Part shown: one piece after another, positions 14,414-64,000 of the stretch
How positions within the stretch are numbered: position 1 is the stretch's first letter
Layout of the letters: each line of letters starts with the position of its first letter
Source of the DNA: Terebella lapidaria
Taxonomy: Eukaryota; Annelida; Polychaeta; Terebellida; Terebellidae
Reading direction: 5' to 3'
DNA: 64,000 nt
Assembly (NCBI GenBank): GCA_949152475.1
Contig: OX424568.1
Coordinates: 7,291,667 to 7,355,666 of the forward strand
Notes under the pieces: model-generated
Told to the model about the DNA's origin: nothing
The model's input: only the letters and a program-made list of their open reading frames with translations
The model's database searches: none
Position numbers and translations under genes: made by a program

Positions 14414-14440
14414 CTTCCGGAATTTAAATTCCGGCAAGTA
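14414..14440 (+). mobile_element. 3' terminal palindrome of a fifth family (E), orphan
   Basis: A palindrome centred on the 18-bp CCGGAATTTAAATTCCGG (14417-14434) continues into CAAGTAA, the closing signature of the other families. The left arm reads CTTCCGG where a perfect match would be CTTGCCGG. The expected CTGACCAACATA word in front is not recognisable. No 5' end with the matching word was found upstream. Confidence 0.5.
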
Positions 14441-14483
14441 ATGACTGACCAACATACTTGGCAAAATTTATTTTGCCAAGTAA
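14441..14483 (+). mobile_element. C-family 3' module, orphan
   Basis: ATGACTGACCAACATA is followed by the C palindrome (14456-14481: ACTTGGCAAAAT arm, loop, inverse arm) and AA. Its own 5' part is not seen to the left. It directly follows the E palindrome, as expected if an E element had inserted into the tail of a C element. Confidence 0.7.
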
Positions 14484-15068
14484 TGAAGCAATCGCTCAAA
14501 GAGCTAGGACTTGGCAAAATAAAGTTAGAGATCTTGAAGAGAAGTCTATAAACTAGCTTTGGTCTATAAACCCCTGCACCATAATACTGTAATATATTTT
14601 TTTCAATTATTTATTTGTCGTTAACTAAATTGTACATTTACTAAATTGTGTTGTTATGTTGTTTATAATTAAATGCAAGATCATGATTCTGTAAGTTAAA
14701 AATAAAAAAAAATAGTTTCAAGAGAGACTTGAACCCGGGTCTGTGGATTGAGAGTCATACGCTCTATGCACAGCACTAACGTCGCTGGCAGTTGGAGGAG
14801 GTGTATCCCATGTAACAATTCCTGTATGGTTTTCCAACCTCCATAGATATAAGCAATGTAACAGTTTTTTGGTCGCCAAGACAACAGTTTTTGAGCTATG
14901 ATCTTCAAATTCAATAGGCTTATGAAGGAGTCTTATGCGCATCTTCTGTGTAAATTTGATGTCATTCAGACCAGGATTGCGGCCGCTATCGTGCAAACTG
15001 ACGGACAGACAAACATGCAAACAAGATGACTGACCAACATACTTGGCAAAATTTATTTTGCCAAGTAA
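14484..15068 (+). mobile_element. C-family element 1, complete (585 bp)
   Basis: The start TGAAGCAATC contains the small hairpin GCTC-AAA-GAGC, then TAGG, then X = ACTTGGCAAAAT. The end has a GACGGACAGACAAACATGCAAAC tail region, CTGACCAACATA, and the palindrome of X (15041-15066) plus AA. A tRNA-like segment lies on the minus strand at 14723-14786. It has no coding capacity. It is the shortest complete member here and so the best model of the minimal element. Confidence 0.8.
14723..14786 (-). repeat. tRNA-derived segment (C type)
   Basis: Read on the minus strand it gives an A-box-like TTAGTGCTGTGCATAGAGC and a B-box-like GGGTTCAAGTCTC. A run of T (plus-strand A at 14700-14711) follows, as for a Pol III terminator. 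It is degenerate and not a functional tRNA. Confidence 0.65.
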
Positions 15069-15285
15069 TGAAGCAATCGTTCAAAGAGCTAGGACTTGGC
15101 AAAATAAAGTCAAAGAACTTGAAAAGAAGTCGATACACCAGCTAAAAAACGTTTCGAGAGAGACTTGAATCGTTTTTTTTTTAAATTATCTAGTTGCTGT
15201 TAAGTAAGTTGTACATGTATTAAATTGTGCAGTTGTGCTGTAAAAGACATGATCCTGTAAGTTGGAGAGAAAAAACAAGTTTTGA

Positions 15286-15351
15286 GAGGGAGTTGAACCC
15301 GGGGTCTGTGGATTCAGAGTCCTGAGCTCTATGCACAGCACCAACGTGACC
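15286..15351 (-). repeat. tRNA-derived segment (C type)
   Basis: The minus strand reads GGTGCTGTGCATAGAGCTC, then GGACTCTGAATCC (anticodon-arm-like), then GGGTTCAACTCC (B-box-like). An A-run on the plus strand at 15270-15276 would act as a terminator. Confidence 0.65.
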
Positions 15352-15619
15352 GACAGTGTGAAGTGGTGTATTTATTGTATGTACTGCTAAAAACCGGGAA
15401 TGGGGCCGGTTCCTTTGCCGGTTCGTCACCCCCAGCAGTCTTAATATAAGGGAGCCTGTGGCTTGACACAGACTGTATTTAGACTAGAGTTTTAGGCTTT
15501 GTTATATCACTTGTACATCACTGAGTTAGAAAACCACTGAAATGTTGTTTGAGATCTGCATCTGGATACATATATGATATACTGTATTGCTATGCAACCG
15601 AGCGTGTGTATTTAGGACG

Positions 15620-15731
15620 GGACATGTCCACAGGGGGTAATCGTTTCTACAGCTTATTGGCGTGTGAACGGATTGAGAATCAGATTCACCCCACTGCTAT
15701 TTCTACTTTGATATCTCGGCGAGTTTTCAAT
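15620..15731. repeat. ~112-bp conserved block, copy in C2
   Basis: It begins with the palindrome GGACATGTCC and ends GAGTTTTCAAT. It is the same, apart from one or two bases, in C6 (60193-60304), C8 (63028-63139) and all five 1,269-bp units, while flanking sequence between C and those units differs at many sites. A frame through it ends in a stop just after CCAAATG in all copies (TAA in C, TGA in the units), but upstream differences are mostly amino-acid-changing, so conservation looks nucleotide-level. On the minus strand it lies about 95 bp after the tRNA-like segment at 15826-15892, as a SINE central domain would. Confidence 0.75.
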
Positions 15732-15825
15732 CTATTCCAAATGTAAAAGGTGCATTATAAACTAGCAATAACACTGCAACTGACTGTATAAAAAGTAAGT
15801 TCGAGATAAAAGAGATTAGAGTTTT

Positions 15826-15892
15826 GAGGGAGGGTTGAACACCGGTCTTTGGATTCAAAGTCTTACGCTCTATCCACTGCACCAACGTCGCC
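15826..15892 (-). repeat. tRNA-derived segment (C type, Gln-like loop)
   Basis: The minus strand has TTGGTGCAGTGGATAGAGC (good A box), GACTTTGAATCC (an anticodon arm like tRNA-Gln with anticodon TTG) and a weaker B box GGTGTTCAACCC. No acceptor stem or CCA is seen, so it is a derived segment and not a tRNA gene. Confidence 0.7.
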
Positions 15893-16145
15893 GACAGTGT
15901 GAAGAAGTGTATTCCATGTAACAGTTACTTTATGGTTTTCCAGCCTCCATAGTTATAGTTATGTAACGGTTTTTCAGTCGCCAAGACAACAGTTTTTAAG
16001 CTATGACCTTCAAAATCAATAGGCTTGTGCAGCAGTATTATGCGCATCTTCTTTGAAAATTTCATGTCATTCCGACAAGGATTGCGCCCGCTATCGTGCG
16101 AACAGACGGCCATAACACATATTTGATCGCTGAGCAACATACAAC

Positions 16146-16684
16146 TGAAGCAATCGCTCAAAGAGCTAGGACTTGGCAAAATAAAGTTAAAGATCTTGAA
16201 GAGAAGTCTATAAACTAGCTTTGGTCTATAAACACCTGCACCATAATACTGTAATTTTTTTTTTTATTATTAATTCTTTGTCGTTAACTAAATTGTACAT
16301 TTACTAAATCGTGTTGTTATGTTGTTTATAATTAAATGCAAGATCATGATTCTGTAAGTTAAAAATACAAAAAAATAGTTTCAAGAGAGACTTGAACCCG
16401 GGTCTGTGGATTGAGAGTCATACGCTCTATGCACAGCACTAACGTCGCTGGCAGTTGGAGGAGGTGTATCCCATGTAACAATTCCTGTATGGTTTTCCAA
16501 CCTCCATAGATATAAGCAATGTAACAGTTTTTTGGTCGCCAAGACAACAGTTTTTGAGCTATGATCTTCAAATTCAATAGGCTTATGATGGAGTCTTATG
16601 CGCATCTTTTGTGTAAATTTGATGTCATTCAGACCAGGATTGCGGCCGCTATCGTGCAAACTGACGGACAGACAAACATACAAA
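16146..16684 (+). mobile_element. C-family element 3, 3' module displaced
   Basis: It is nearly the same as C1 through the tRNA-like segment (16385-16448) and the ATCGTGCAAACTGACGGACAG tail. It is cut after CATACAAA, where C4 starts. The missing CAAGATGACTG-hairpin module may be the orphan at 57798-57844. Confidence 0.75.
16385..16448 (-). repeat. tRNA-derived segment (C type)
   Basis: This copy is almost identical to 14723-14786, with B-box-like GGGTTCAAGTCTC on the minus strand and a plus-strand A-rich run just before it. Confidence 0.65.
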
Positions 16685-18149
16685 TGAAGCAATCGCTCAA
16701 AGAGCTAGGACTTGGCAAAATAAAGTAATGAACTTGAAGAGAAGTCTATAAACCAGCTTTGGTCTATAAACCCTTGCATCATAATACTGTAATAATATTA
16801 AATTGTGCTGCTACATTCTTCAGAATTGAAAGCATGATCATGATCTTGTAAGTTACAGATGAAAAATTACAATGACAACAAGTGAACAAAACGAATAGAG
16901 ACACTCGGTGAATACAAATCATGCCAGAATGGACTTAACACAGATGCATTATGATGCATGAAGGACACGATCATAATGGAACCAATGAGACACTGTTAAA
17001 TGACTTTAAGGAATTCATAGTGAGAAATAATTAAGTATGATGACATAATAACGATAAAGATTACTCGTGCTACATTTATTTGCTGATTTTGTACACTACG
17101 AATGTGTTGTTTCGTTGTTTGGAATTGAATACATGATCTTTTAACGGAGAAAAAAAATAGTTTTGAGATAGTATTGAACCCGGGTCTGTGGATTCAAAGT
17201 CCTACGCTCTACGCTCAGCACTAACGTGGCTGGCGATGTGAAGCGGAGTGTTTCATATAGCAATGCTATTATCGTTTTCATGTAATGCTTTTCAGTAACG
17301 ATTTTCTGTTACCGTGACAACAGTTTCAGAGCTATGATGTTCCAAATCAAAAGGGTTATGCGGACATTCCGTGCAAATATTATGTGAGAATTTTGTCAAA
17401 ATCACACAAGAATCGACCGCACAGCAATGTGTTAAACTTTGGATCCGAAATTCATGACCCCCATTTATTTCACCTGGAGTTTAAATCGTCAATTTTGACT
17501 CAACCGCTGTCGGTCATACATCAAATGATGCAGAATTGGCCATAGTAAAAGACGTGAACACTTTTGGAAGTGCAGGTGGAATGAAAATGGAGTTATGACC
17601 ATTTTTAATTTTTTGGTTTTTCAACGATTTTGTCGTTAATTCTTGACCTTTGACCTTGAGAAACGAAAGGAATATGCCGACATCTGGTGTGCATGTGCTG
17701 TGAAAATTTCATAAGAATCCGACAAGAATTGACTGCACAGCAATGCATGAAACTTTTGATCCAGAAACTCCTGACCCCCGTCTATTTAACCTGGAGTCAA
17801 AATCGTCAATTTTCACTCAACAGCTGTCGGCCATACATCAAAAGATGCAGAATTGGCCATAGTAATCGATGCTAGAAATCTCGAAACTCCAGATAAAATA
17901 TAACTGGAGTTACTACGATTTTTAATTTTTTGGTTTTTGAACGACCTTGACGTCAATTTTTGACCTTTGACGTTCAGAAACGAAAGGCTTATGTGGAATA
18001 TCCTTGCACATGTTTTGTCAAAATTTCATGAAAATCCGACAAGAATTGCGCCCGCTATCGTGCAAACTGACGGACAGACAAACATACAAACAAACAAACA
18101 AACAAGATGACTGACCAACATACTTGGCAAAATTTATTTTGCCAAGTAA
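16685..18149 (+). mobile_element. C-family element 4, complete (1,465 bp)
   Basis: It has a standard C start after CATACAAA and an intact 3' module with palindrome at 18122-18147. The interior has a tRNA-like segment (17166-17230) and two diverged tandem modules of about 320 bp (about 17330-17650 and 17650-17970). Each module holds a GACCCCC...ACCTGGAGT segment, then GCAGAATTGGCCATAGTAA, then a TTGACCTTTGAC line. Confidence 0.8.
17166..17230 (-). repeat. tRNA-derived segment (C type, Gln-like loop)
   Basis: The minus strand shows TTAGTGCTGAGCGTAGAGC, GGACTTTGAATCC and GGGTTCAATAC. A plus-strand A-run at 17150-17157 forms the putative terminator. Confidence 0.65.
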
Positions 18150-19186
18150 CGAGGGGCCATAGGCCCGGCAGTTGACGAATTCGCAAACTTTCATCTCAAT
18201 GTGAAAGGTCAAGGTCATAGTAATGTTATTATCTGGAAATGACATACACATTTGATTGTTTTGCCGCTTCCGAATGAAGTGGTTCAAAATCGATGACTCC
18301 GACGATTCAAGCAAATGTTATTACTTTACAGGTGTTTTTTCTGGGATTTCGATGACTTTGACCTTGATCTTTGACCTTTGTACTACAATTCGTAGAGGTC
18401 AATACTATCAATGGGTACAACAAGTTTCAAGATACTCCATACAGTATTGACGCTGTTATTGCCTTTTGAAATTTCGGAAATTAAACGTACGTGTAGGATG
18501 CAATCAGATTTTGATGATGCCAGAAACAAACGTAAAATACAACATTTTGCAATGAAAATTGTAGCTGGATCAAATAATTCATCCGAAGACACACTGAAAT
18601 ATTCCACTCATGCATATTCATGAAACGTTTTTTTTTTTTTCAAACTCCATAAACAGTGATAAAGGCACCAAGTAGTGGATTCTTTGTGTTTTCTGCTTCA
18701 GGCTTGATTTTGATTTAATATCGCGAAACAATAGAATTATATAAAAGGGTGACTGTGGAAAACATATCAGAATTAATACAAAAAAACACTCAGAAACAGA
18801 AAAAGTCATTTAGTCGGAATTTAAAAAAAAAAAAAAGACAATAGGAATCGAACCCGTGACCCCGCGCACCAACACCTAACGCCTTTACTGACTGAGCCAA
18901 TCTGTCGCTTGAAGTTACTGCGCGTGAAGTATATAGCGTACGAGAGACCGCGCTCAGAATAAATGCTGGTATATCCCATGGCTGGGCATTGGTGTGGCTA
19001 CTGTGGCGGCAGCGTGAGGAATTTTTTAGATATTTTTGTAACGTCTTCACTCAACCGATTTTCACGAAAATTGAACCATTTCTAGTCTTTAACATAAAGA
19101 ATAACCGTGTAAATTTTCGTGAAAATATCTCCAGAATTGTGGTCGCTATCGTGCTAACAGACATCTTACTGATGGACATACAATTA
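18150..19186 (+). mobile_element. A-family element 1 (TTCGCAAAC subtype), no 3' palindrome
   Basis: The 5' end has CGAG, the hairpin GGGCC-ATA-GGCCC, GGC and X = AGTTGACGAATT. The body contains TGACCTTGATCTTTGACC motifs and a minus-strand tRNA-like segment. It ends CATACAATTA, where another A element starts. Sister copies at 21531, 29435, 41379 and 43126 end the same way, so this subtype seems to travel joined to a following element. Confidence 0.8.
18844..18908 (-). repeat. tRNA-derived Pol III-like unit (A type)
   Basis: The minus strand reads A box TTGGCTCAGTCAG (one mismatch to the general consensus), B box GGTTCGATTCC (perfect), then TATTGTC and a long T-run (plus-strand A-run about 18822-18835). 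Box spacing is tRNA-like. Acceptor pairing is not evident. Confidence 0.75.
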
Positions 19187-20907
19187 CGAGGGGCCATAGG
19201 CCCGGCAGTTGACGAATTAGGAAGGTTACCGGACAATATATGTTTTAGATATATGTTTTAGTGAGATATTAGCCATTTTGTGCTCTGACCTCAATTTTCA
19301 AATCATGAGAAGATATAACATATATCATTTCCTATACATGTATGTCCAAAGCTGTGAAGTCGATAAAAAGCGATATATTAGCCACATTGTGCTCTGACCT
19401 TGAAAATGAGGTCGAAGGTCAAATGTCAAGGTCAAGGTCATAGAAGATAGAACTCGAGTTAATCTACAATATGAACTTGGTTTGAAGTCTCTAGGGCGAT
19501 TAGAACCGAAGTTATGGCCATTTATGTGTTTTCGACACTTTATGTGACCTTGACCTTGACCTTTGACCTAGGGTCCCCAAATTTCACCCATTTGCAAGTA
19601 TATACATAAGCATTTTATACGTACAATTTGGTCATGATACGTCCAAAACTGTGGTTGTAGAGCGGTAATATACGAAGAACAAACTAGATTTTGATGATAA
19701 CAATAGAATGCAAAGCAGTTTTTCCGTTGCCATGGCAACATTTTTCAGGCGAATTTGACTAAAATCAATGGGTGCCTGGCTTTGAGCCTAAAAAGTGTTC
19801 CCATAAAGTTTGGTGATGATCCGACCTAAACTGTGATATGTTTCAGTTAGTTTGAAAATTTGACCTTGAAGTTTTGAATGTGTCCTCATTTTTGCGACCA
19901 AGTTCAAGGTCAATTATAAAATTGACATGTACATATGGTTACCATGCCTCTTCTGAATGATATGGTTCAAATTTTATGAGACTACAATGATTCAAGCAGA
20001 TGTTATAACCGAAAAGGTGTTTTTCTAGGATTTCGATGACCTTGAACTTGACCTTTGACCTTTGTATTTCAATTCGTAGAGGTCAATGCTATTAATATGC
20101 ATGTCAAGTCTCAAGATATTCCATACAGTATTGACGCTGTTATGGCCTTTTGAAATTTCGGTAATTTGACGTTTATGACGTCATTGTGACGTGAGTGTAC
20201 GTCGCAGCGCCGAAAATAAGGTATCACTGCAATCAAGGGCCCAAGACCTTTCCAACGATATACTACTCGATATGATTCGCTGACCTTCGAACCTGACCTT
20301 GACATTCACCTCGTGGCAAACTCTCAAGGTCAAGCTCAAATGCCGAGGTCAAGGTCACAGAAGATAGAACTCGAGTTTATCTACAATATGAACTTGGTTT
20401 GAAGTCTCTAGCACGAATAGAACCGGAGTTATGGCCACTTATGTGTTTTTAACATTTTGCGTGACCTTGACCTTGACTTTGGACCTTGAGTCACAAAAAT
20501 TGTGCATTGTCTGTGCATGAATATATATATTGTATCTGTAAAATTTCATCAGAATCAAACAAAATTTGTGGACACTATGACCGTTTGAAATTTTTAAAAA
20601 TTAACGTTTATGACGTCACTGTGACGTCAATAAACGTCACAGCTCAAAACTGATGAAAAGGTATGTACCAGGGAATCAAGACCTTTCATTTGATATACTA
20701 CTTGATAGGTTTCAGTTAGTTTTAAAATTTGACCTTGAAGTTCTCCTCATATGACCTTATTTTCCTGACCAAGTTCAAGGTCAATCATGAAATTGACATA
20801 TAGGTTCGATTGCTATACCTCTTCTGAACGATATGGTTCAAATTTCATGAACCTACGACAATTCAAACGGATGTTATTACCGGGAACGTGTTTTTCTGGG
20901 ATTTTGA

Positions 20908-20935
20908 TGACCTTGACCTTGACCTTTGACCTTTG
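20908..20935 (+). promoter_or_regulatory. Nuclear-receptor half-site cluster (example)
   Basis: TGACCTTGACC followed by TTGACCTTTG reads on the minus strand as overlapping AGGTCA half-sites, including TCAAGGTCA (the extended half-site known for NR5A and ERR receptors) and an AGGTCA-A-AGGTCA direct repeat. Dozens of such lines occur in A, B and D interiors. The motif match is direct; any binding or function is inference. Confidence 0.3.
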
Positions 20936-21046
20936 CACTTAAATTCGTAGAGGTCATTGCTGTCAGTATGCATATCAAGTTTCAAGAGATTCCATACAGT
21001 ATTGACGATGTTATGGCCTTTTGAAATTTCGGGAATTTGACCTTTA

Positions 21047-21065
21047 TGACGTCATTGTGACGTCA
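21047..21065. promoter_or_regulatory. Paired CRE-like palindromes (example)
   Basis: There are two perfect TGACGTCA octamers (21047-21054 and 21058-21065) three bases apart. TGACGTCA is the known CREB/ATF site. The same pair recurs in sister modules, for example near 24808, 25678, 33571 and 49929, mostly intact. Confidence 0.35.
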
Positions 21066-21530
21066 GTGTACGTCGCAGCGCCGAAAATAGGGTATCACTG
21101 CGATCAGGGGGTCAAGGCCTTTCCAATGATATATTACTCGATATGCTGCGCTGATCTTCGTACTTGACCTTGACTTCGACCTGGGGCAAACTTCTCAAGG
21201 TCAAGGTCAAATGTCAAGGTCAAGGTCACAGACGATAGAACTCGAGTGTATCTACAATATGCACTTGGTTAGAAGTCTCTAGAACGATTAGAACCGGAGT
21301 TATGACCACTTATGTGTTTTCAACGTTTTGTGTGACCTTGACCTTGACCTTTGACTTAGGGTCACCAAAATTCACCGGTTTCCAGGTATATACCTAGGCA
21401 TTGTATCCATACGATTTGGTGATGATCCGGCCAAAACTGTGGCCTGTAACGTGCAAACAGACAAACAAACAGACAAACAGACAAACCGAACTGACCAACA
21501 TAGTTGACGAATTTTTAATTCGTCAACTAA

Positions 21531-22570: not shown

Positions 22571-23926
22571 CGAGGGGCCATAGGCCCGGCAGTTGACGAA
22601 TTTGCCATAGAAACGTCAATTACGTCATACCGAATTGACGTTGCACGTAGCGTGTTGAAACTTGGTACGTCCCTGAATAATAAAGCTCCACATACGTTCT
22701 CATAATTACAGCCAATAACCTTCAAAATTGATTACACTGTGCTTGTTTGGAAGTTTGCTGAAAAGCCGTAAATCTCGTATGACAGGCCTTACGTTTATGA
22801 CCTCATAGCGGAAAATCTATCATGGCGGAAAAGTATTGGACAGTACCCTTCTAAACCAGAATTCAACGAGCTTTCCACTGGTGCAATCCGCTTCTCTCTA
22901 CGACAAATACTTTTTGATATATAGCCCCATTTCGAAAATTGACGTTTTACGTGATGACGTCATTGACGTTGCATGTAGCGTGTTGAAACTTGGTACGTGG
23001 CTGGATATCATTATTTCACATACTTCCTGATAATTACTGTTCAATACCTTCAAATTTGAGTGCACTGTAGATGTTTGAAAGTTTGCTGAAAAGTCGAAAA
23101 ATTGGTATGACAGGCCTTACGTTTATGACGTCATAGCGGAAAATCCATCATGGCGGAAAAGTATCGGACAGTACCCTTCTAAACCAGAATTCAACGAGCT
23201 TTCCAATGGTGCAATTCGCTTCTCTGTACGACAAATACTTTCCGATATATAACCCCATTCCAAAAATTGACGTTTTACGTCATGACGTCATTGACGTTGC
23301 ATGTAGCGTGTTGAAACTTGGTGTATGGCTGGGTATCATTATTCCATATTAGTTCTGACAATTACAGTATAATATCTTCAAAATTGAGTGCACTGTGGAT
23401 GTTTGAAAGTTTGCTGAAAAGTCGAAAAATTGGTATGACAGGCCTTACGTTTATGACGTCATAGCGGAAAATCTATCATGGCGGAAAAGTATGGGACAGT
23501 ACCCTTCTAAACCAGAATTCAACGAGCTTTCCAATGGTGCAATCCGCTTCTCTCTACGACAAATACTTTTCGATATATAGCCCCATTTCGTAAAATGACG
23601 TTTCACGTCGTGACGTCATTGACGTTCGAACAATCCGAGTAAAACTTCGCAGTTCGATGGAAGATACCATTATATATCGGTGTGCTGAATTTCAGAGATA
23701 TCGGTCCAAATGTGACTGCTGTGTGAATTTTTGAAAATCCGCCAATGATGAGAGATAGGGATTTTTCGATTTTTCAATGATTTTTGGTGACGTCATCAAT
23801 GAACCGATTTCTTTCAAAAACGTTCGGTGCTCTCCCAGGGCGGATACCTATCTATCAAAAAAGTTTCGGGATGCTAGCTCGAAAACTGTGGCCTGTAACG
23901 TGCTAACAGACAAACAAACATACAAA
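22571..23926 (+). mobile_element. A-family element 4 (TTTGCCATAG subtype), split by B1
   Basis: The A 5' end is followed by about three tandem ~330-bp modules containing GACAGTACCCTTCTAAACCA, TGACGTCATTGACGTT and ATGACGTCATAGCGGAAAAT. The element breaks after CATACAAA; its tail resumes at 26197 after B1. Confidence 0.8.
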
Positions 23927-27794: not shown

Positions 27795-29385
27795 CGAGGG
27801 GCCATAGGCCCGCAGTTGACGAATTGTCATAGAAATTGCAATGATGTCAAAAGGAGAAGCTGACGTCCTGACGTCATTGTCGTTGCACTTAACGTCTTGA
27901 AACTCAGTACATGACTGGGTATTAATATTCCAAATAAGTCCTCATGATTTCAGTCCAATAGCTTCAAATTTAAGTGCACTGTGGATGTTTGAAAGTTTGC
28001 TGAAAAGTAAAAAAATTGGTATGACAGGCATTACGTTTATGACGTCATAGCGGAAAATCTATCACGGCGGAAAAAGATCACACAGTACCCTCCTACACCA
28101 GAATTCAACGAGCTTTCCAATGGTGCAATCCGCTTCCCTGTACGACAAATATCTCTCGACATATAGCTCCATTTTTAAAATTGACGTTTTACGTGATGAC
28201 GTCATTGACGTTGCACGTAGTGTTTTGAAACTCGGTACGTGGCTGAATAATAACGCTCCACATACGTTCTCATAATAACAGCCTATTACCTTCAAATTTG
28301 AGTGGACAGTGCTTGTTTGGAAGTTTTCTGAAAAGCCGTAAATCTTGTATGACAGGCCTTACGTTTATGACGTCATAGCGGAAAATCTATCATGCCGGAA
28401 AAGTATCGGACAGTACCCTTTTGAACCAGAATTCAACGAGCTTTCCAATGGTGCAATTCGCTTCTCTGTACGACAAATACTTTTCGATATATAGCTCCAT
28501 TTCGAAAATTGACGTTTTACGTCATGACGTCATTGACGTTGCACGTAGCGTGTTGAAACTTGGCATATAGCTGGGTATCATTATTTCACATACCTTCGGA
28601 TAATTACAGTCCAATATCTTCAAATTTGAGTGCACTGTGGATGTTTGAAAGTTTGCTGAAAGTCGAAAAATTGGTATGACAGGCTTTACGTTTATGACGT
28701 CATAGCGGAAAATCTATCATGGCGGAAAAGTATCGGACAGTACCGTTCTAAACCAGAATTCAACGAGCTTTCCAATAGTGCAATTCGCTTCTCTGTACGA
28801 CAAATACTTTCCGATATATAGCCCCTTTTCGAAAATTGACGTTTTACGTCATGACGTCATTGACGTTCAACCGATGCAAGTAAAACTTTGCAGTATGATG
28901 GATGATATCAACATATATCGGTGTGCTAAGTTTCAGAGGTATCGATCTAAATATGACTGCTGTGTGAAATTTTGAAAACTCGCCGATGATAAGAGACATG
29001 AAAAAGAATCAAATTCGTGACCCCCAAATTTTCGACCTCGGGCGCAAATCGCGAGTTTTGGTCGTAGGACCATCAGACATGTACCATATGATGTGTAATT
29101 GACCAAATAAAAATACAAAAATAGTTAGAAAAAATAATCCTATGTAGAACGTCAGTTATTGTGATTTTTCGATTTTGACCTTTTGTGTGACCTTGACCTT
29201 GACCTTGGAGCTAGGGTCACCAAAATATAACTATTTCCAGATCTATACATAAGCATTGTACCCGTGCATTTTGGTGATGATCCGGTCAAAACTGTGGCCT
29301 GTATCGTGCTAACAGACAAACATACAAAGAAACAAACAAACGGAACTGACCAACATAGTTGTCGAATTTTCAATTCGTCAACTAA
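27795..29385 (+). mobile_element. A-family element 6, complete
   Basis: This is a near-identical duplicate of A5, with corresponding positions 1,533-1,534 bp apart. It has its own full 3' module with palindrome at 29357-29383; one stem pair is broken by GTTGTCG for GTTGACG. It lies inside the tail of A5. Confidence 0.85.
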
Positions 29386-34968: not shown

Positions 34969-35034
34969 CAAACAGACAGACAGACAAACTCGACTGACCA
35001 ACATACTTGACGAAATTTACATTTCGTCAAGTAA
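34969..35034 (+). mobile_element. Extra B-type 3' module
   Basis: CAAACAGACAGACAGACAAA, CTCGACTGACCAACATA, palindrome 35005-35032 (loop-side ACA instead of A) and AA. It matches the ends of the following 1,269-bp units better than that of B2, so it is probably the 3' end of the element into which B2 inserted. Confidence 0.75.
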
Positions 35035-42847: not shown

Positions 42848-43125
42848 TTGAACTTACTGCGCGTGAAGTATATAGCGTACGAGAGACCGCGCTCAGAATA
42901 AATGCTGGTATATCCCATGGCTGGGCATTGGTGTGGCTACTGTGGCGGCAGCGTGAGGAATTTTTTAAATATTTTTGTAACGTCTTCACTCAACCGATTT
43001 TCACGAAAATTGAACCATTTCTAGTCTTTAACATGAAGAATAACCGTGTAAATTTTCGTGAAAATATCTCCAGAATTGTGGTCGCTATCGTGCTAACAGA
43101 CATCTTACTGATGGACATACAATTA

Positions 43126-47947: not shown

Positions 47948-47948
47948 T

Positions 47949-53654: not shown

Positions 53655-55410
53655 CGAGAGCCCATAGGGCACACACTTGCCAGAACCAAAATATATGTCA
53701 TATGCCAATGACATGACATATGGATTTAACAAATTGACGAAACTTACTTCCCTACTTACTACGTTTACTTACTTACTTTACTTCATTTTACTTCACTTTA
53801 GTTCACAAACTACTCATACTGTCATTGTTACCTCATTGAACGTCACAGTGCCAAAAATGAGACATCACTGGACTTAGGAGACCAAAAACTTTCTAAAGGT
53901 ATACTACCCGATATGGTGAGCTGAACTTCGTACTTGCCCTCGACATTGAGCTCATCACAAAGTCTCAAGAACAAGGTCAAAGGTCAAATTCAAAGTCAAA
54001 TAAGGAAGATTTTTTAATATGCTGCAATATGGTCTTAGTTTGAACTCTCTACGACGATTAGTTTCGAAGTAATGGCCATTTATGTGATTTTGACGTAATT
54101 ATGACGTCATTTGTCGTCAATTCTATGCTGCAAACTTACTGTGAAATGATTTTTTTGAATATGCATGTCAAAATAATTTATATATGTATTATATTATCAG
54201 CAGACAAGTTCATAATATCTTGAAATAATAAGTTTTTTTTGAAAATTTAGCGATTTGTTGCAACAAAAACGTCAATTACGTCAAAATGGATATATGGATT
54301 GAGCTAAAACTTGACAGAGAGCATCATAGGCCGAATCCACATCGTTTGCAGCTGTTAGGTCCGCAGTGAATCTTGTAAGTTTGCACATCTGACACTCAAA
54401 AGGCCTAAATGTCAGTCTGAAATCACATTCGACGTCATTATGACGTCAATTGACGTCCGATTCCAAAAATGACAACACATTTGGACAGTACTCTTGAAGA
54501 CCTTTCAAATGAGTTACTACTCGATAATTTTGCAAAAGGTCAAGGTCAAGGTCATTTTTAAGGTCAATTTCGACCTAGGCGCTTGCAAAGGCTATCGGTC
54601 ATACGCCTTAGGTGTAATAGCAAAAGTTGTTAGGCTAAGTGAGTGCATTACTGTGGATTTACTTTCGTGTCTCTATCTTGCTTACTTTCTGAGATATAGT
54701 GACCTACATGGTTTTCACTTGCAGGTCAATATTGACCTTGACTTTCGACCCTTGACCTTAAAATTTTTTGGAACATAAGAACTTATCCTTGACTATAAAC
54801 GGGTTTATCATTAGATTTTTACGCACAGTATTGACGTTTTTATCAGCATGGACAGCTTGAAACATGCAATTTCGCTTATCATGGGACTGATTTTGTTGCC
54901 ATAGAAACGTCAATTACGTCATAACGGATTGACCGATCGCGCTAAAAATTGACATTGAGCATAAGGGACCGGTCCCACATCGTTTCCAAGCATCAGATCG
55001 AAAATCGGAGGAGGTGACCTCCAAGGTCAAATATTCGACCTCAGGCGAACTTCTCAAGTTCAAGGTCAAATGTCAAGGTCAAGGTCACGAAAGATAGAAC
55101 TCGAGTTTATCTACAATATGAACTTGATTTGAAGTCTCTAGCACTATTAGAACCGAAGTTATGGCCACTTATGTGTTTTCAACGTTTTGCTTGACCTTGA
55201 CCTTGACCTTTGACCTACATACACCAAAATAGGACGTTTTCCGCGCGGTATACTAGAGAATATGTACACGAAATTTGGAGGAAATCGGGTGAGAAATGTG
55301 GACGCTAGGCTGTAAACAAACAAACAAACAAACACACAAACAAACACACAAACAAACACATCCACGAACAGACCAACATACTTGCCAAAATCGAAGATTC
55401 TGGCAAGTAA
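53655..55410 (+). mobile_element. D-family element, complete (1,756 bp)
   Basis: The 5' end is CGAGA, hairpin GCCC-ATA-GGGC, ACAC, X = ACTTGCCAGAA. The 3' end has ACAAACACACAAAC repeats, CAGACCAACATA and palindrome 55380-55408, whose right arm TTCTGGCAAGT is the exact inverse of the 5' X, while the left arm has one mismatch. It is the only D copy in the window and sits in the A13 tail. The interior is more diverged, with CRE-like and AAGGTCAAGGTCA words. Confidence 0.82.
53742..53807 (+). repeat. Degenerate (TTAC)n microsatellite
   Basis: ACTTACTTCCCTACTTACTA grades into TTTACTTCATTTTACTTCAC inside the D element, a local slippage product not seen in other families. Confidence 0.8.
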
Positions 55411-55459: not shown

Positions 55460-57797
55460 CGAGGGGCCATAGGCCCGGCAGTTGACGAATTAGGAAGGTT
55501 ACCGGACAATATATGTTTTAGATATATGTTTTAGTGAGATATTAGCCATTTTGTGCTCTGACCTCAATTTTCAAATCATGAGAAGATATAACATATATCA
55601 TTTCCTATACATGTATGTCCAAAGCTGTAAAGTCGATAAAAAGCGATATATTAGCCACATTGTGCTCTGACCTTGAAAATGAGGTCGAAGGTCAAATGTC
55701 AAGGTCACAGAAGATAGAACTCGAGTTAATCTACAATATGAACTTGGTTTGAAGTCTCTAGGGCGATTAGAACCGAAGTTATGGCCATTTATGTGTTTTC
55801 GACACTTTATGTGACCTTGACCTTGACTTTGACCTAGGGTGACCAAATTTCACCCATTTGCAAGTATATACATAAGCATTTTATACGTACAATTTGGTCA
55901 TGATACGTCCAAAACTGTGGCTTGTAGAGCGGTAATATACGAAGAACAAACTAGATTTTGATGATAACAATAGAATGCAAAGCAGTTTTTCCGTTGCCAT
56001 GGCAACATTTTTCAGGCGAATTTGACTAAAATCAATGGGTGCCTGGCTTTGAGCCTAAAAAGTGTTCCCATAAAGTTTGGTGATGATCCGACCTAAACTG
56101 TGATATGTTTCAGTTAGTTTGAAAATTTGACCTTGAAGTTTTGAATGTGTCCTCATTTTTGCGACCAAGTTCAAGGTCAATCATAAAATTGACATGTACA
56201 TATGATTACCATGCCTCTTCTGAATGATATGGTTCAAATTTTATGAGACTACAACGATTCAAGCAGATGTTATAACCGAAAAGGTGTTTTTCTAGGATTT
56301 CGATGACCTTGACCTTGACCTTTGACCTTTGTATTTCAATTCGTAGAGGTCAATGCTATTAATATGCATGTCAAGTTTCAAGATATTCCATACAGTATTG
56401 ACGCTGTTATGGCCTTTTGAAATTTCGGTAATTTGACGTTTATGACGTCATTGTGACGTGAGTGTACGTCGCAGCGCCAAAAATAAGGTATCACTGCAAT
56501 CAGGGGGACAAGACCTTTCCAACGATGTACTACTCGATATGATTCGCTGACCTTCGTACTTGACCTTGACATTCACCTCATGGCAAACTCTCAAGGTCAA
56601 GGTCAAATGCCAAGGTCAAGGTCACAGAAGATAGAACCCGAGTTTATCTACAATATGAACTTGGTTTGAAGTCTCTAGCACAAATAGAACCGGAGTTATG
56701 GCCACTTATGTGTTTTTAACATTTTGCGTGACCTTGACCTTGACTTTGGACCTTGAGTCACAAAAATTGTGCATTGTCTGTGCATGAATATATATATTGT
56801 ATCTGTAAAATTTCATCAGAATCAAACAAAATTTGTGGACACTATGACCGTTTGAAATTTTGAAAAATTAACATTTGTGACGTCACTGTGACGTCAATAA
56901 ACGTCACATCTCAAAACTGATGAAAAAGTATGTACCAGGGAATCAAGACCTTTCATTCGATATACTACTTGATAGGTTTCAGTTAGTTTTGAAATTTGAC
57001 CTTGAAGTTCTCCTCATATGACCTTATTTTCCTGACCAAGTTCAAGGTCAATCATGAAATTGACATATAAGTCCGATTGCTATACCTCTTCTGAATCATA
57101 TGGTTCAAATTTTATGAACCTACGACAATTCAAACGGATGTTTTTACCGGGAACGTGTTTTTCTGGGATTTTGATGACCTTGACCTTGACCTTTGACCTT
57201 TGCACTTAAATTCGTAGAGGTCATTGCTGTCAGTATGCATATCAAGTTTCAAGAGATTCCATACAGTATTGACGATGTTATGGCCTTTTGAAATTTCGGG
57301 AATTTGACGTTTATGACGTCATTGTGACGTCAGTGTACGTCGCAGCGCCGAAAATAGGGTATCACTGCGATCAGGGGGTCAAGACCTTTCCAATGATATA
57401 TTACTCGATATGCTGCGCTGATCTTCGTACTTGACCTTGACTTCGACCTGGGGCAAACTTCTCAAGGTCAAGGTCAAATGTCAAGGTCAAGGTCACAGAC
57501 GATAGAACTCGAGTGTATCTACAATATGCACTTGGTTAGAAGTCTCTAGAACGATTAGAACCGGAGTTATGACCACTTATGTGTTTTCAACGTTTTGTGT
57601 GACCTTGACCTTGACCTTTGACTTAGGGTCACCAAAATTCACCGGTTTCCAGGTATATACCTAGGCATTGTATCCATACGATTTGGTGATGATCCGGCCA
57701 AAACTGTGGCCTGTAACGTGCAAACAGACAAACAAACAGACAAACAGACAAACCGAACTGACCAACATAGTTGACGAATTTTTAATTCGTCAACTAA
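55460..57797 (+). mobile_element. A-family element 14, complete (2,338 bp)
   Basis: Near-identical copy of A2 some 36 kb to the left, with an intact 3' palindrome at 57769-57795. The small differences are mostly single bases. Confidence 0.87.
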
Positions 57798-57844: not shown

Positions 57845-58065
57845 TGAAGCAATCGCTCAAAGAGCTAGGACTTGGCAAAATAAAGTAAAGAACTTGAAAA
57901 GAAGTCTATAAACCAGCTTTGACCCGCATCATACGTACTGGAATATATATATATTTTTCAGTTACCTATTTGCTGTTAAGTAAATTGTACATGTATTAAA
58001 TTGTGCAGTTATGCTATATAAAAGACATGATCCTGTAAGTTAGAGAGAAAAAAAAAAAAGTTTTG

Positions 58066-58132
58066 AACGAGAGTTGAACCGGGGTCTGTGGATTCAAAGT
58101 CGTACACTCTATGCACAGCGCCAAGGTGACCG
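58066..58132 (-). repeat. tRNA-derived segment (C type, Gln-like loop)
   Basis: The minus strand has TTGGCGCTGTGCATAGAGTG, GACTTTGAATCC and GGTTCAACTC. A-run 58049-58059 on the plus strand is the putative terminator. Confidence 0.65.
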
Positions 58133-58649
58133 ACAGCAGAAGTGGTGTATGTATTGTAACAGGTCCTTCACGGCAAGCTACTGCTAGAAACCGGGAATGG
58201 GGCCGGTTTGCTCCGCCGGTTGATCATCCCCAATAGTTCTGATATAAAGTGGCCTGTCGTTTGACACAGACTGTATTAAGAGTAGAGTTTTAGGCTTTGT
58301 TATATCACTAGTACATCACTGAGTCAGAAAACCACCGATATGTTGTTTGAGACCTGCATTTGGATACATATATGATATACTGTATTAATACGCAACCGAG
58401 TGTGTACTGGTATATTTAGGAGTTAACAGAGATGCGCTATGATGCATGAAAAACATGATCATAATGGAACCAATGAGACACTGTAAATGATTTAAGGAAT
58501 ACATAGTGAGAAATAATTAAGTGTGATGACATTGAAACAATGAAGATTACTCCTGCTACTTTTATTTGCTGAGTTTGTACGACACGATTGTGTTGTTTTG
58601 TTGTTTGGAATTAAATACATGATCTTATAAGGGAGAAAAAAAAAAGTTT

Positions 58650-58715
58650 TGAGAGAGTATTGAACCCGGGTTTGTGGATTCAAAGTCCTACGCTCTACGC
58701 ACAGCACTAACGTGG
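58650..58715 (-). repeat. tRNA-derived segment (C type, Gln-like loop)
   Basis: The minus strand has TTAGTGCTGTGCGTAGAGC, GGACTTTGAATCC and GGGTTCAATAC. A-run 58636-58645 on the plus strand. Confidence 0.65.
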
Positions 58716-59839
58716 CTTGCAATGTGAAGAGGTGTGTTTCATATAGCAATGCTATTATCGCTTTTATGTAATGCTTTTCAGTAACGATTTTCTGTTGCCG
58801 TGACAACAGTTTGAGAGCTATGATGTTCCAAATCAAAAGGGTTATGCGGACATTCCGTGCGCATATTCTGTGAGAATTTCGTCAAAATCACACAAGAATT
58901 GACTGCAAAGCAATGTGTTAAACTTTGGATCCGAAATTCCTGACCCCCATGTATTTCACCTGGAGTTTAAATCGTCAATTTTGATTCAACCCCTGTCGGC
59001 CATACATCAAATGATGCAGAATTGACCATGATAAAAGACGTGAACACCTTTGAAAGTGCAGGTGGAATGAAAGTGGAGTTATGGCCATTTTTATTTTTTT
59101 TGTTTTTCAATGACCTTGGCGTTAATTCTTGACTTTTGACCTTGAGAAACAACAGGAATATGCCGACATCTGGTATGCATATGCTGTGAAAATTTCATAA
59201 GAATCCGACAAGAATTGACTGCACAGCAATGCATGAAACTTTTGATCCAGAAACTCCTGACCCCTGTTTTTTTAACCTGGAGTCAAAATCGTCAATTTTG
59301 ACTCAACAGCTTTCGGCCATACATCAAAAGATGCAGAATTGGCCATAGTAATCGATGAAAGAAATCTCGAAAATCCAGATAGAATATAACTGGAGTTATT
59401 ACGATTTTTAATTTTTTGGTTTTTGAACGACCTTGACGTCAATTTTTGACCTTTGACCTTCAGAAACGAAAGGCTTATGAGGATGCTCTCTGCGCATATT
59501 GTGTGAAAAGTTCATGAAAATGCGACAAGAATTGCGCCCGCTATCGTGCAAACTGACGGACAGACAAACATACAAACAAACAAACAAGATGACTGACCAA
59601 CATACTTGGCAAAATTTATTTTGCCAAGTAATGAAGCAATCGCTCAAAGAGCTAGGACTTGGCAAAATAAAGTTAATGATCTTGAAGAGAGGTCTATAAA
59701 CTAGCTAAAAAAACGTTCAGAGAGAGATTTGAATAGTTCTTTTTTTTTAAATTATCTAGTTGCTGTTAAGTAAGTTGTAATTGTGCAGTTATGCTATGAA
59801 CGACATGATCTTGTCATTTAGAGAGAAAAAACAAGTTTT

Positions 59840-59905
59840 GAGAGAGAGTTGAACCCAGGTCTGTGGATTCAGAGTCCTGAGCTCTATGCACAGCGCCAAC
59901 GTGGC
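59840..59905 (-). repeat. tRNA-derived segment (C type)
   Basis: The minus strand has TTGGCGCTGTGCATAGAGC, GGACTCTGAATCC and GGGTTCAACTC. A short A-run lies just before it on the plus strand. Confidence 0.65.
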
Positions 59906-60192
59906 CTACAGCGTAAAGTGGTGTATGTATTGTAACAGTTCCTCTATGGCAAATTACTGCTAAAAACCGGGAATGGGCCCGGTTCCTTTGCCGGTTCGTC
60001 ACCCCCAGCAGTCCTAATATAAGGGAGCCTGTCGCTTGACACAGACTGTATTTAGACAAGAGTTTTAGGCTTTGTCATATCACTTGTACATCACTGAGTT
60101 AGAAAACCACTGAAATGTTGTTTGAGATCTGCATCTGGATACATATATGATATACTGTATTGCTATGCAACCGAGCGTGTGTATTTAGGACG

Positions 60193-60304
60193 GGACATGT
60201 CCACAGGGGGTAATCGTTTCTACAGCTTATTGGCGTGTGAACGGATTGAGAATCAGATTCACCCCACTGCTCTATCTACTTTGATATCTCGGCGAGTTTT
60301 CAAT
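60193..60304. repeat. ~112-bp conserved block, copy in C6
   Basis: Nearly the same as in C2 (one changed site is CTCTATCTACT). It persists here although the adjoining tRNA-like segment is gone. Confidence 0.72.
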
Positions 60305-60879
60305 CTATTCCAAATGTAAAAGGTGCATTATAAACTAGAAATAACACTGCAACTGACTGTATAAAAACTAAGTTAGAGATAAAAGAGATTAGAGATTAGC
60401 CGACAGTGTGAAGAAGTGTATTCCATGTAACAGTTACTTTATGGTTTTCCAGCCTCCATAGTTATAGTTATGTAACGGTTTTTCAGTCGCCAAGACAACA
60501 GTTTTTAAGCTATGACCTTCAAAATCAATAGGCTTGTGCAGGAGTCTTATGCGCATCTTGTTTGAAAATTTCATGTCATTCCGACAAGGATTGCGCCCGC
60601 TATCGTGCGAACAGACGGACAGAACACATATTTGATCGCTGAGCAACATACAACTGAAGCAATCGCTCAAAGAGCTAGGACTTGGCAAAATAAAGTAATG
60701 AACTTGAAAAGAAGTCTATAATAAACCAGCTAAAAAACGTTTTGATAGAGACTTGAATAGTTCTTTTCTTTAAATTATCTATTTGCTGTGAAGTAAATTG
60801 TACATGTATTAAATTGTGCAGATATGCTATATAGAATAAAAGACATGATCTTGTAAGTTAGAGAGATAAAACAAGTTTT

Positions 60880-60946
60880 GAGAGGGAGTTGAACCCGGGG
60901 TCTATGGATTCAAAGTCCTGAGCTCTACCCACTGCACCAAAGTGGC
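60880..60946 (-). repeat. tRNA-derived segment (C type, Gln-like loop)
   Basis: The minus strand has TTGGTGCAGTGGGTAGAGCTC, one of the better A boxes, then GGACTTTGAATCC and GGGTTCAACTCCC. Confidence 0.68.
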
Positions 60947-61459
60947 CGGCAGCATCAAGTTGTGTTGTATTGTAACAGTTCCTCTATGGCAAATTACTGC
61001 TAAAAACCGGGAAGGGGGCCGGTTTCCTCCGCCGGTTGATCAGCCCCAATAGTTCTGATATAAAGTAGCCTGGCGTTTGACACAGACTGTATTAAGAATG
61101 AAGTTTTAGGCTTTGTTGTATCACTAGCACATCACTGAGTTAGAAAACCACCGAAATGTTGTTTGAGATCTGCATTTGGATACATATATGATATACTGTA
61201 TTGCTATGCAACCGAGTTTTGTATATTCAGGAGATAACACAGATGCGCTATGATGCATGAAACACATGATCATAATGGAACCAATGAGACACTGTAAATG
61301 ACTTGGAAAATATATAGAAAGAAATAATTATGTGTGATGACATAGAATTGACGAAGATTACTGCTGCTATATATATTTGCTGAATTTGTACACTACGAAT
61401 GTGTTGTTTCCTTGTTTGGAATTGAATACATGATCTCATAATGGAGAAAAAAAAAAGTT

Positions 61460-61527
61460 TTGAGATAATATTGAACCCGGGTTTGTGGATTCAAAGTCCT
61501 ACACTCTACGCTCAGCACTAACGTGGC
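61460..61527 (-). repeat. tRNA-derived segment (C type, Gln-like loop)
   Basis: The minus strand has TTAGTGCTGAGCGTAGAGTG, GGACTTTGAATCC and GGGTTCAATAT. A-run 61446-61456 on the plus strand. Confidence 0.65.
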
Positions 61528-62592
61528 TGGCGATGTGAAGCGGAGTGTTTCATATAGCAATGCTATTATCGTTTTCATGTAATGCTTTTCAGTAACGATT
61601 TTCTGTTGCCGTGACAACAGTTTCAGAGCTATGATGTTCCAAATCAAAAGAGTTATGCGGACATTCCGTGCACATATTATGTGAGAATTTCGTCAAAATC
61701 ACACAAGAATCGACTGCACAGCAATGTGTTAAACTTTGGATCTGAAATTCTTGACCCCCATGTATTTCACCTGGAGTTTAAATCGTCAATTTTGATTCAA
61801 CCGCTGTCGGTCATACATCAAATGATGCAGAATTGGCCATAGTAAAAGACGTGAACACTTTTGGAAGTGCAGGTGGAATGAAAGTGGAGTTATGACGATT
61901 TTTAATTTTGTGGTTTTTCAATGACCTTGGCGTTAATTCTTGACCTTTGACCTTGAGAAACAACAGGAATGTTCCGTTATACTGTGTGCATATGCTGTCA
62001 AAATTTCATAAGAATCCGACAAAAATTGACTGCACAGCAATGCATGAAACTTTTGATCCAGAAACTCCTGACCCCCGTCTTTTTAACCCGGAGTCAAAAT
62101 CGTCAATTTTGATGCAACAGCTGTCGGCCATACATCAAAAGATGCAGAATTGGCCATAGTATTCGAGGCTAGAAATCTCGAAACTCCAGATAAAATATAA
62201 CTGGACTTATTACGATTTTAAATTTTTTGGTTTTTGAACGACCTTGACGTCAATTTTTGACCTTTGACCTTCAGAAACGAAAGGCTTATGAGGAAGATCC
62301 TTGCACATGTTGTGTCAAAATTTCATGAAAATCCGACAAGAATTACGCCCGCTATCGTGCGAACGGACGGACAGACAAACATACAAATGAAGCAATCGCT
62401 CAAAGAGCTAGGACTTGGCAAAATAAAGTAATGAACTTGAAAAGAAGTCTATAATAAACCAGCTAAAAAACGTTTTGAGAGAGACTTGAATAGTTTTTTT
62501 CTAGTTGCTTTTAAGTAAATTGTACATGTATTAAATTGTGCAGTTATGCTATAAAAGACATGATCTTGTAAGTTAGAGAGAAAAAACAAGTT

Positions 62593-62661
62593 TTGAGAGA
62601 GAGTTGAACCCGGGTCTGTGGATTCAAAGTCCTGAGCTCTATGCACAGCACCAAAGTTGCC
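62593..62661 (-). repeat. tRNA-derived segment (C type, Gln-like loop)
   Basis: The minus strand has TTGGTGCTGTGCATAGAGCTC, GGACTTTGAATCC and GGGTTCAACTC. Confidence 0.65.
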
Positions 62662-62743
62662 GACAGTGTGAAGTGGTGTATTTATTGTATGTACTGCTAA
62701 AAACCGGGAATGGGGCCGGTTCCTTTGCCGGTTCGTCACCCCC

Positions 62744-62890
62744 AGCAGTCCTAATACAAGGGAGCCTGTCGCTTGACACAGACTGTATTTAGAGCAGTCC
62801 TAATATAAGGGAGCCTGTCGCTTGACACAGACTGTATATAGAGCAGTCCTAATATAAGGGAGCCTGTCGCTTGACACATACTGTATTTAG
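62744..62890 (+). repeat. 49-bp unit repeated three times
   Basis: Units start at 62744, 62793 and 62842 with AGCAGTCCTAAT and end ACTGTATTTAG or a one-base variant. Other C elements (near 15435, 60008 and 63897) have a single copy. Confidence 0.92.
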
Positions 62891-63027
62891 ACTAGAGTTT
62901 TAGGCTTTGTTACATCACTTGTACATCACTGAGTTAGAAAACCACTGAAATGTTGTTTGAGATCTGCATCTGGATACATATATGATATACTGTATTGCTA
63001 TGCAACCGAGCGTGTGTATTTAGGACG

Positions 63028-63139
63028 GGACATGTCCACAGGGGGTAATCGTTTCTACAGCTTATTGGCGTGTGAACGGATTGAGAATCAGATTCACCCC
63101 ACTGCTCTTTCTACTTTGATATCTCGGCGAGTTTTCAAT
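63028..63139. repeat. ~112-bp conserved block, copy in C8
   Basis: GGACATGTCC through GAGTTTTCAAT, the same as in C2 but for CTCTTTC against CTATTTC. Confidence 0.75.
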
Positions 63140-63231
63140 CTATTCCAAATGTAAAAGGTGCATTATAAACTAGAAATAACACTGCAACTGACTGTATAAA
63201 AACTAAGTTAGAGATAAAAGAGATTAGAGTT

Positions 63232-63300
63232 TTGAGGGAGGGTTGAACACGGGTCTTTGGATTTAAAGTCTTACGCTCTATCCACTGCACCAACGTTGCC
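63232..63300 (-). repeat. tRNA-derived segment (C type)
   Basis: The minus strand has TTGGTGCAGTGGATAGAGC (good A box), GACTTTAAATCC (loop changed from the Gln-like form) and a weak B box GTGTTCAACCC. Confidence 0.68.
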
Positions 63301-63553
63301 GACAGTGTGAAGAAGTGTATTCCATGTAGCAGTTACTTTATGGTTTTCCAGCGTCCATAGTTATAGTTATGTAACGGTTTTTCAGTCGCCAAGACAACAG
63401 TTTTTAAGCTATGACCTTCAAAATCAATAGGCTTGTGCAGGAGTCTTATGCGCATCTTCTTTGAAAATTTCATGTCATTCCGACAAGGATTGCGCCCGCT
63501 ATCGTGCGAACAGACGGACAGAACACATATTTGATTGCTGAGCAACATACAAC

Positions 63554-64000
63554 TGAAGCAATCGCTCAGAGAGCTAGGACTTGGCAAAATAAAGTATTGA
63601 ACTGGAAAAGAAGTCTATACACTAGCTTTTACACTAGCTTGATACAGTTATTAAATTGTGTTGTTATGTGGTTTAGAGTGAAATTCATGATCATGATTGT
63701 GTAAGTTGAAAATAAAAATAAAATAATTTCAAGAGAGATTTGAACCCGGGTCTGTGGATTCAAAGTCCTGATCTCTACGCACAGCACCAAAGTGGCCAAC
63801 AGCGTCAAGTTGTGTTGTATTGTGACAGTTCCTCTATGGCAAATTACTGCTGAAAACCGGGATTGGGGCCGGTTCCTTTGCCGGTTCGTGACCCCCAGCA
63901 GTCCTAATATAAGGGAGCCTGTCGCTTGACACAGACTGTATTTAGACAAGAGTTTTAGGCTTTGTTATATCACTTGTACATCACTGAGTTAGAAAACCAC
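63554..64000 (+). mobile_element. C-family element 9, cut by the window end
   Basis: C 5' end (GCTC-AGA-GAGC, one loop base changed), a tRNA-like segment and the ACTGCTGAAAACCGGGATTG region shared with C2, C6 and C8. The right part lies outside the window. Confidence 0.75.
63730..63797 (-). repeat. tRNA-derived segment (C type, Gln-like loop)
   Basis: The minus strand has TTGGTGCTGTGCGTAGAGATC, GGACTTTGAATCC and GGGTTCAAATC. Its A-rich plus-strand leader is broken by T. Confidence 0.65.

Follow-up and report, generated by a model that had tools for sequence, protein, structure and literature searches.

Nested non-autonomous Helentrons with matched, family-specific end words in a single-orientation array of Terebella lapidaria

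The DNA considered here, called the window throughout, is a stretch of 64,000 nucleotides from the annelid Terebella lapidaria (assembly GCA_949152475.1, contig OX424568.1; G000:C15:7291667-7355666 in our notation, where C1, C15 and so on are contig labels), and from 14.4 kb rightward it carries a dense array of nested repeats. The repeats belong to an established kind of rolling-circle transposon, the Helentron and the non-autonomous elements associated with it (HINEs), and lie nested within one another. Taken as a whole, the array is very probably a nested, single-orientation assembly of non-autonomous Helentrons (HINEs of the Helitron2 group), whose ends would be served by the Rep protein of full-length copies. 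This reading is carried by the anatomy of the ends, by words that match between the two ends in eight families, by an autonomous copy of one of them (family C), and by nesting in which two of the host sites have paralogous uninterrupted counterparts. Genome searches covered 761.6 Mb in 438 contigs.

As read on the plus strand, an end in which a sequence finishing in ACATA is followed by a hairpin is called a head, and the opposite end, a short hairpin followed by a word, is called a tail. Read on the minus strand, an element has the order TT–X–loop–X'–TATGTTGGTCAG–(GTTT/GTCT)n–body–X'–spacer–3' hairpin, where X with its complementary arm is the 5' end carrying the subterminal inverted repeat (subTIR), the later X' is the 3' subTIR, and the body often consists of tandem repeats. 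We assign the window elements to the minus strand because, by the published convention, the 5' end is the one with the terminal subTIR, and the 3' end the one where the subTIR is internal and accompanied by a hairpin (PMC3627910, PMC7492417). The initial annotation of this DNA had the ends right on the plus strand and took them in the direction opposite to that convention: its '5' hairpin' is the Helentron 3' terminal hairpin, and its '3' palindrome' is the 5' subTIR with its complementary arm. The match to HINE anatomy was hidden because the elements had been read backwards.

The window holds 21 heads and 28 tails, every one on the plus strand as read. A search for heads that was blind to the word (ACATA, then a hairpin) gave 21 on the plus strand and none on the minus strand or in the reversed sequence, and AA directly follows all 21. 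The conserved motif CTGACCAACATA occurs exactly 20 times in the window, on the plus strand only (31 times with up to two mismatches, against 7.8 expected by shuffling); it is borne by 20 of the 21 heads, the family D head bearing CAGACCAACATA instead, and genome-wide it is found 3557 times against 140 for the reversed word. At the tails, the head word (11 letters, at most one mismatch) lies within 1–5 nt after 27 of 356 plus-strand hairpins with a 4-bp stem and a 3-nt loop, and after 0 of 356 in each of the two window controls, the minus strand and the reversed sequence. The 28th tail, of family C at 15094, has one changed stem base (GTTC-AAA-GAGC), and a looser tail rule also gave seven tail-like matches on the minus strand of the window. 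The structure first proposed, a hairpin and word X at one end and a conserved motif with an X palindrome at the other, thus holds up; the spacer between hairpin and word, put at 3–4 nt, is in fact 2–4 nt (GGC or GC in family A, AAC in B, TAGG in C, ACAC in D). An inverted repeat or hairpin stands beside the 5' subTIR in 21 of 21 heads, which were found by this feature, and a short hairpin with an exact stem lies between the 3' subTIR and the 3' end in 27 of 28 tails, those 27 having been found by it.

Other classes of element fit these ends less well. The ends as read are without the 5'-TC and CTRR-3' of a canonical Helitron1 and have subTIRs, while in contrast to a cut-and-paste miniature inverted-repeat transposable element (MITE) the inverted repeats are not both terminal, one copy being internal behind a hairpin; both assignments were rejected. 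A supposed fifth tail, CACG-TAG-CGTG before ACTTGG, was dropped because its eight matches sit inside a 328-bp repeat. Matches in viral contigs were likewise discarded: the conserved motif, searched with 16 of its letters fixed, matched 39 stretches there, and these look like chance because none of the 39 has a hairpin after the motif.

The families, rather than the copies, are the sample for covariation, because copies within a family share their ends by descent. Outside the window, DNA surveyed around three Rep-helicase copies (71 kb), in other clusters (38 kb) and at short loci supplied further families. In the eight families of which both ends were seen (A, B, C, D, G, H, I and J), with the 5' subTIR terminal and its 3' copy internal, the tail word equals the outer arm of the head in 11 of 11 letters without a mismatch, whereas against the inner arm there are four mismatches in total. 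When tails and heads are allotted at random, 6 of 40320 pairings are equally good, because three families have one common word; for the six distinct words the figure is 1 in 720, and the earlier claim that the ends covary by family is upheld. Where the two head arms differ, in the four families D, G, H and J, it is the outer one that the tail matches. Family D illustrates this, its tail word ACTTGCCAGAA being equal to the outer arm ACTTGCCAGAATC and different from the inner arm ACTTGCCAAAAT, which has A where the outer arm has G (a G.T wobble on the minus strand). The statement that the word always matches the palindrome is therefore true of the outer arm in eight families and fails for the inner arm of D. 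Exact counts were made over the genome: the A stem with GGC and AGTTG is found 304 times and the same stem and spacer with ACTTG not at all, the B tail 810 times, GACCAACATAGTTG 1288 times (2 for the reversed control) and CCGACCAACATACTTG 1040 times (0 for the reversed control).

A search of the genome for Rep domains gave 234 first-look candidates, 150 of which were scored, all matching Helitron_like_N. One match, at C15:7370188 and 14.5 kb past the window edge, lies in an open frame of 2757 aa within an autonomous Helentron of 19.3 kb (C15:7357930-7377222), which begins 2.3 kb beyond that edge. At one end of this copy stands a family C tail (word at 7357958) and at the other a family C head (7377190), no further end having been called in between; the copy is the Rep-helicase element with the same ends that had been proposed as a check on the initial annotation. 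Its frame contains DUF6570, OTU, Helitron_like_N, PIF1 and Exo_endo_phos domains together with the motifs HAH at 1525 and YVAAY at 1706 and a Walker A motif, and is predicted to encode a two-tyrosine HUH Rep with a PIF1 helicase; the C-terminal endonuclease (Exo_endo_phos, 2572-2745, E 2e-5) scores 24.9 bits against a cut-off of 24.5. On its head side the copy is 91.7-92.1% identical over 1.16-1.29 kb to three stretches of family C HINEs in the window, and on its tail side 77.5-81.4% identical over 285-328 bp to window C HINEs. Homologous copies lie on C8 (frame of 2866 aa) and C1 (2712 aa, with a family C head at 41319018), the C15 and C8 copies sharing blocks of homology that extend from the tail across the frame, and in 16 kb inspected downstream of two further Rep copies no element end was found. 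For family A, three of the 56 Rep matches on C1-C5 have an exact tail upstream of them, at 11.3, 11.6 and 13.3 kb; the first of the three has an exact A-type head 10.1 kb downstream, with no other exact A end listed between. By their positions these ends are only suggestive of an autonomous family A copy, because the A-type head nearest downstream of C1:47241937 has its own tail (47233469); the Rep frame there is followed by 328-bp repeats 80-86% identical to those of A HINEs.

The elements of the window are arranged as follows.

14456..14483, minus strand: family C head (5' subTIR and complementary arm) with no tail before it in the window, at the left edge of the nested block.
14484..15067, minus strand: complete family C HINE of 584 bp, on the plus strand GCTC-AAA-GAGC, TAGG, X (ACTTGGCAAAAT), then, further on, CTGACCAACATA, X-TT-X' and A.
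15069..18149, minus strand: composite family C unit with tails at 15094, 16171 and 16710 and a single head at 18122.
18150..21530, minus strand: composite family A unit with tails at 18170 and 19207 and a head at 21502.
22620..23626, no strand assigned: tandem repeats of 328 bp, in 3.1 copies, at the centre of a family A element.
23930..26194, minus strand: family B HINE (tail 23946, head 26168) within a family A microsatellite.
27795..29383, minus strand: family A HINE nested in a family A HINE (heads 29357, then 29406).
32689..34967, minus strand: family B HINE (tail 32709, head 34940).
35005..41377, minus strand: six family B heads with a period of 1268-1269 bp (35005, 36274, 37543, 38812, 40080 and 41349) and no tails.
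49057..51305, minus strand: family B HINE (tail 49075, head 51277).
53655..55408, minus strand: family D HINE nested in family A.
55460..57795, minus strand: family A HINE (tail 55480, head 57769), adjoining a family C head at 57817.
57845..59630, minus strand: family C HINE (tail 57870, head 59604), which at its head side shares 91.7% identity over 1.2 kb with the autonomous C Helentron.
59631..64000, minus strand: family C tails at 59657, 60680, 62413 and 63579, with no heads in the window.

When each head is paired with the nearest open tail, 13 of the 21 heads match their tail without a mismatch in 11 letters, and one has no tail before it. The microsatellite beside an A head hosts B, D and A elements. 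Two of these insertions have an uninterrupted sister site that the joined flanks bridge: for A in A it lies at 21414-21539 (89.7% identity over 126 bp), for D in A at 21433-21539 (93.7% over 111 bp). The earlier view that the repeats are mobile units, of the Helentron/HINE kind, is upheld. Four nested joins are compatible with insertion between T and T (AA on the plus strand), amid ambiguity from oligo-A and microsatellite, and in such repeat-rich end sequence a short target-site duplication (TSD) is indistinguishable from the repeat. Orientation is mostly uniform: all 21 window heads point the same way, as do neighbouring A tails on C1-C5 that lie within 20 kb of each other (52 of 52) and Rep-tail pairs up to 30 kb apart (20 of 20). 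Exceptions among other ends include C1:46404177+ against 46410219-, 6 kb apart, and C1:46442108- against 46453613+, 11.5 kb apart. A strand-asymmetric oligo-T target would favour insertion in a single orientation.

To our knowledge, the way in which Helentrons recognise their second end is unproven. On the minus strand the element starts with T(T) and the 12-nt 5' subTIR (X), which can fold with the complementary arm just inside it. The Rep-helicase-endonuclease of full-length copies with the same ends would most likely nick the element at T/T and peel off the minus strand by rolling-circle replication, and the far end would be recognised once the 3' subTIR pairs with X, or once a protein brings the two together. 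X and the 3' subTIR would have to change together in each family because the far end would be recognised through their meeting. We infer that it is the minus strand that moves, that the pairing is direct and that the enzyme tells families apart by X. In 77 heads with distinct context (20 arm types; only heads beginning A[CG]TTG were compared), the mismatches between the arms, counted by type, comprise ten that leave G.T on the minus strand, one that leaves G.T on the plus strand and three transversions, that is, 10 of 11 transitions keep a wobble pair on the minus strand. This polarity is a lead, and together with a tail that follows the outer arm it is a modest new detail. Predicted DNA pairing energies are lower for X with the 3' subTIR than for X with the inner arm in D, G, H and J (−13.3 against −10.2 in D, −15.4 against −11.9 in H) and equal in A, B, C and I. 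Bao and Jurka proposed that the end point is fixed, and the 5' hairpin destroyed, when the 5' and 3' asymmetric terminal inverted repeats (ATIRs) pair with each other (PMC3627910), and both the tail that follows the outer arm and the stronger predicted pairing of X with the 3' subTIR suit that proposal. It is possible, if rather unlikely, that the 5' hairpin acts as a decoy of lesser strength, in which the inner arm keeps X locally folded on the strand that is transferred, with G.T pairs taking part in several families. The emerging, fully complementary 3' subTIR would then displace the inner arm, so that strand displacement would tell both the family and the point at which to stop, and the insulation of each word from the rest would allow the families to share a genome. 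A limited literature search found no paper on wobble pairs in Helitron hairpins by title, which is not proof of absence.

Covariation might instead reflect a Rep-helicase domain that co-evolves with one 12-nt double-stranded binding site present at both ends, with no strand-to-strand pairing. A sequence-specific protein would indeed need inverted copies of one word at both ends, and the remainder of the chassis is common to the families. We nevertheless regard this as doubtful. In the families read, most of the inner arm is still complementary, and its transitions mostly keep a G.T pair on a single strand (by arm type 10 of 11, a weak argument from few independent positions), which points to a folded single strand rather than to a duplex site only.

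Several observations weigh against reading the array as non-autonomous Helentrons whose ends are matched by pairing. The wobble polarity perhaps depends on as few as three independent positions (6, 8 and 9), and the sole changed tail stem in the window, at 15094, is of the opposite kind, with T.G on the plus strand and A.C on the minus strand. The covariation sample is only eight families with six distinct words, and an autonomous partner was established for family C only, B and D having yielded none. The Rep frame of that partner is antisense to the 5'-to-3' direction set by the ends, an orientation seen in a minority of published Helitron2 elements and reported for Helitron-1_DR and Helitron-2_CRe (PMC3627910) and from Helentron-Da-40 (PMC4067079). 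Neither the B element in A (81% over 111 bp) nor the A element in C (one 76-bp match, in end sequence) has a convincing uninterrupted sister in the window. Finally, 7 of the 21 window heads meet a nearest open tail of another family (35005, the five tandem copies after it at 36274-41349, and 57817), and 15 of the 28 tails remain open. Six of these seven heads belong to the series of ~1269-bp units with heads and without tails, and the C head at 57817 may have its own tail outside the nested block. Non-cognate heads and open tails are, in Helentron terms, tandem units lacking a 3' end and composite units in which a single 5' head goes with more than one 3' end. Tandem copies with a truncated 3' end have been noted in PMC7492417, and end bypass has been described in PMC5148889; by analogy, the tandem and composite units would be the products expected from missed termination.

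The ~1269-bp units (35005-41349), along with evenly spaced head runs elsewhere such as C3:24.92-24.98 Mb, are also what speaks for a satellite built by unequal crossing-over and gene conversion, in which the ends would be relics and the agreement of words mere homogenisation. Such an origin is very improbable for the array as a whole, given a solitary complete family C copy (L002) in flanks that are not repeat-like, the bracket-like nesting with two uninterrupted sister sites and the long open Rep frames. It is further opposed by three isolated places on C1, among the matches listed, where a B tail is followed 2.2-2.6 kb downstream by CTGACCAACATA, the head being read as B in two of the three. 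Least credible of all is the chance abutment of two unrelated transposons, a MITE with a 3' palindrome and a separate hairpin repeat: heads of one family do often adjoin tails of another, but the identical head-tail combination recurs in the solitary copy and in the autonomous family C element, the latter of which already contradicts it.

Matched family-specific end words are already known from other species, and the additions made here to the picture of Helentrons are the autonomous partner and the wobble-polarity lead. The initial annotation knew of no description of such a covarying word set; this was mistaken, and the feature is not new, because variation of the subTIR, compensation and the idea of pairing appear in earlier papers (PMC2374699, PMC3627910, PMC4067079, PMC7492417). 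A close likeness, by description, is to Cg_HINE of the Pacific oyster (Vojvoda Zeljko, 2020; PMC7492417), which has a 5' subTIR normally of 11-12 bp with a complementary inverted repeat (IR) 1-12 bp away, a GTCY-type microsatellite, tandem repeats, a 3' subTIR and a palindrome, a preference for TT with no TSD seen, and element-specific diagnostic changes in subTIR, IR, stem and loops. In that study no autonomous partner could be tied to Cg_HINE, whereas here there is one for family C, which supplies the piece missing from the oyster study: an autonomous Helentron that shares its ends and ~92%-identical flanking sequence with HINEs. Pearl elements resemble the window elements by description in having tandem core repeats and a tetranucleotide microsatellite. 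In bivalves they have been re-categorised as non-autonomous Helentrons (PMC7492417). In Helitron2 (Bao and Jurka, 2013; PMC3627910) the 5'-ATIR folds with adjacent nucleotides, the 3'-ATIR lies just before the 3' hairpin, some elements have the Rep-helicase in opposite orientation, and two related elements, 1N1_CQu and 1N2_CQu, show compensatory changes; relative to what is set out there, Terebella offers a single genome with eight families and, for the four in which the arms are unlike, a tail that follows the outer arm. DINE-1 has 13-bp subTIRs that vary by species or type, with stem changes read as compensatory (Yang and Barbash, 2008; PMC2374699), and shares with Helentrons the microsatellite, central repeats and TT target (PMC2374699, PMC4067079). 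A Helentron family is defined by at least 11 bp of identical subTIR, and autonomous partners encode an endonuclease (Thomas, 2014; PMC4067079). Compared with the accounts of both, the distinguishing features here are the OTU and DUF6570 domains of the 19.3-kb autonomous element and the long, mostly single-orientation clusters. With at least eight related end families, a domain-complete autonomous C copy and thousands of ends, this one genome is a natural set for tests of strand pairing.

Some further features of the repeats were noted. On C1 (100.8 Mb) the region 33.4-48.4 Mb, perhaps pericentromeric, has heads and tails in long, mostly single-orientation runs among the matches listed, and at C3:24913974-24979014 a run of A-type heads extends over 65 kb as a satellite-like series with a period largely of ~908 bp. 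Within a family A element of the window lies a foldback insertion of ~0.7 kb (41932-42635, 82% self-complementary), flanked on both sides by CTTCAGGCTT, perhaps a TSD. Stretches that look tRNA-like by eye (14720-14790, 18840-18920, 22225-22290, 30130-30200 and 42780-42850), for example those beginning GGAATCGAACCCGTGACCCC in A bodies and TTGAACCCGGGTCTGTGG in C bodies, are perhaps captured pieces of short interspersed elements (SINEs) or tRNAs. Rfam at gathering thresholds gave no match in the window. The bodies at 19390-21430 and 24080-26010 are rich in TGACCTTGACC/TCAAGGTCA and TGACGTCA words, which we take to resemble nuclear-receptor and cAMP response element (CRE) sites. Adjoining the nested block on its left, 14247-14410 holds ATGTAACAAAAGGAC repeats and an inverted copy of them, and simple-sequence arrays occur in the window up to ~13.7 kb: a 9.6-kb satellite at 4123-13740 with a 15-bp unit, GTACTGTAGCCCTCT, in ~649 copies (72% matches), and, to its left, arrays of a 40-bp unit (1-677) and of 30/31-bp units (1160-3833).

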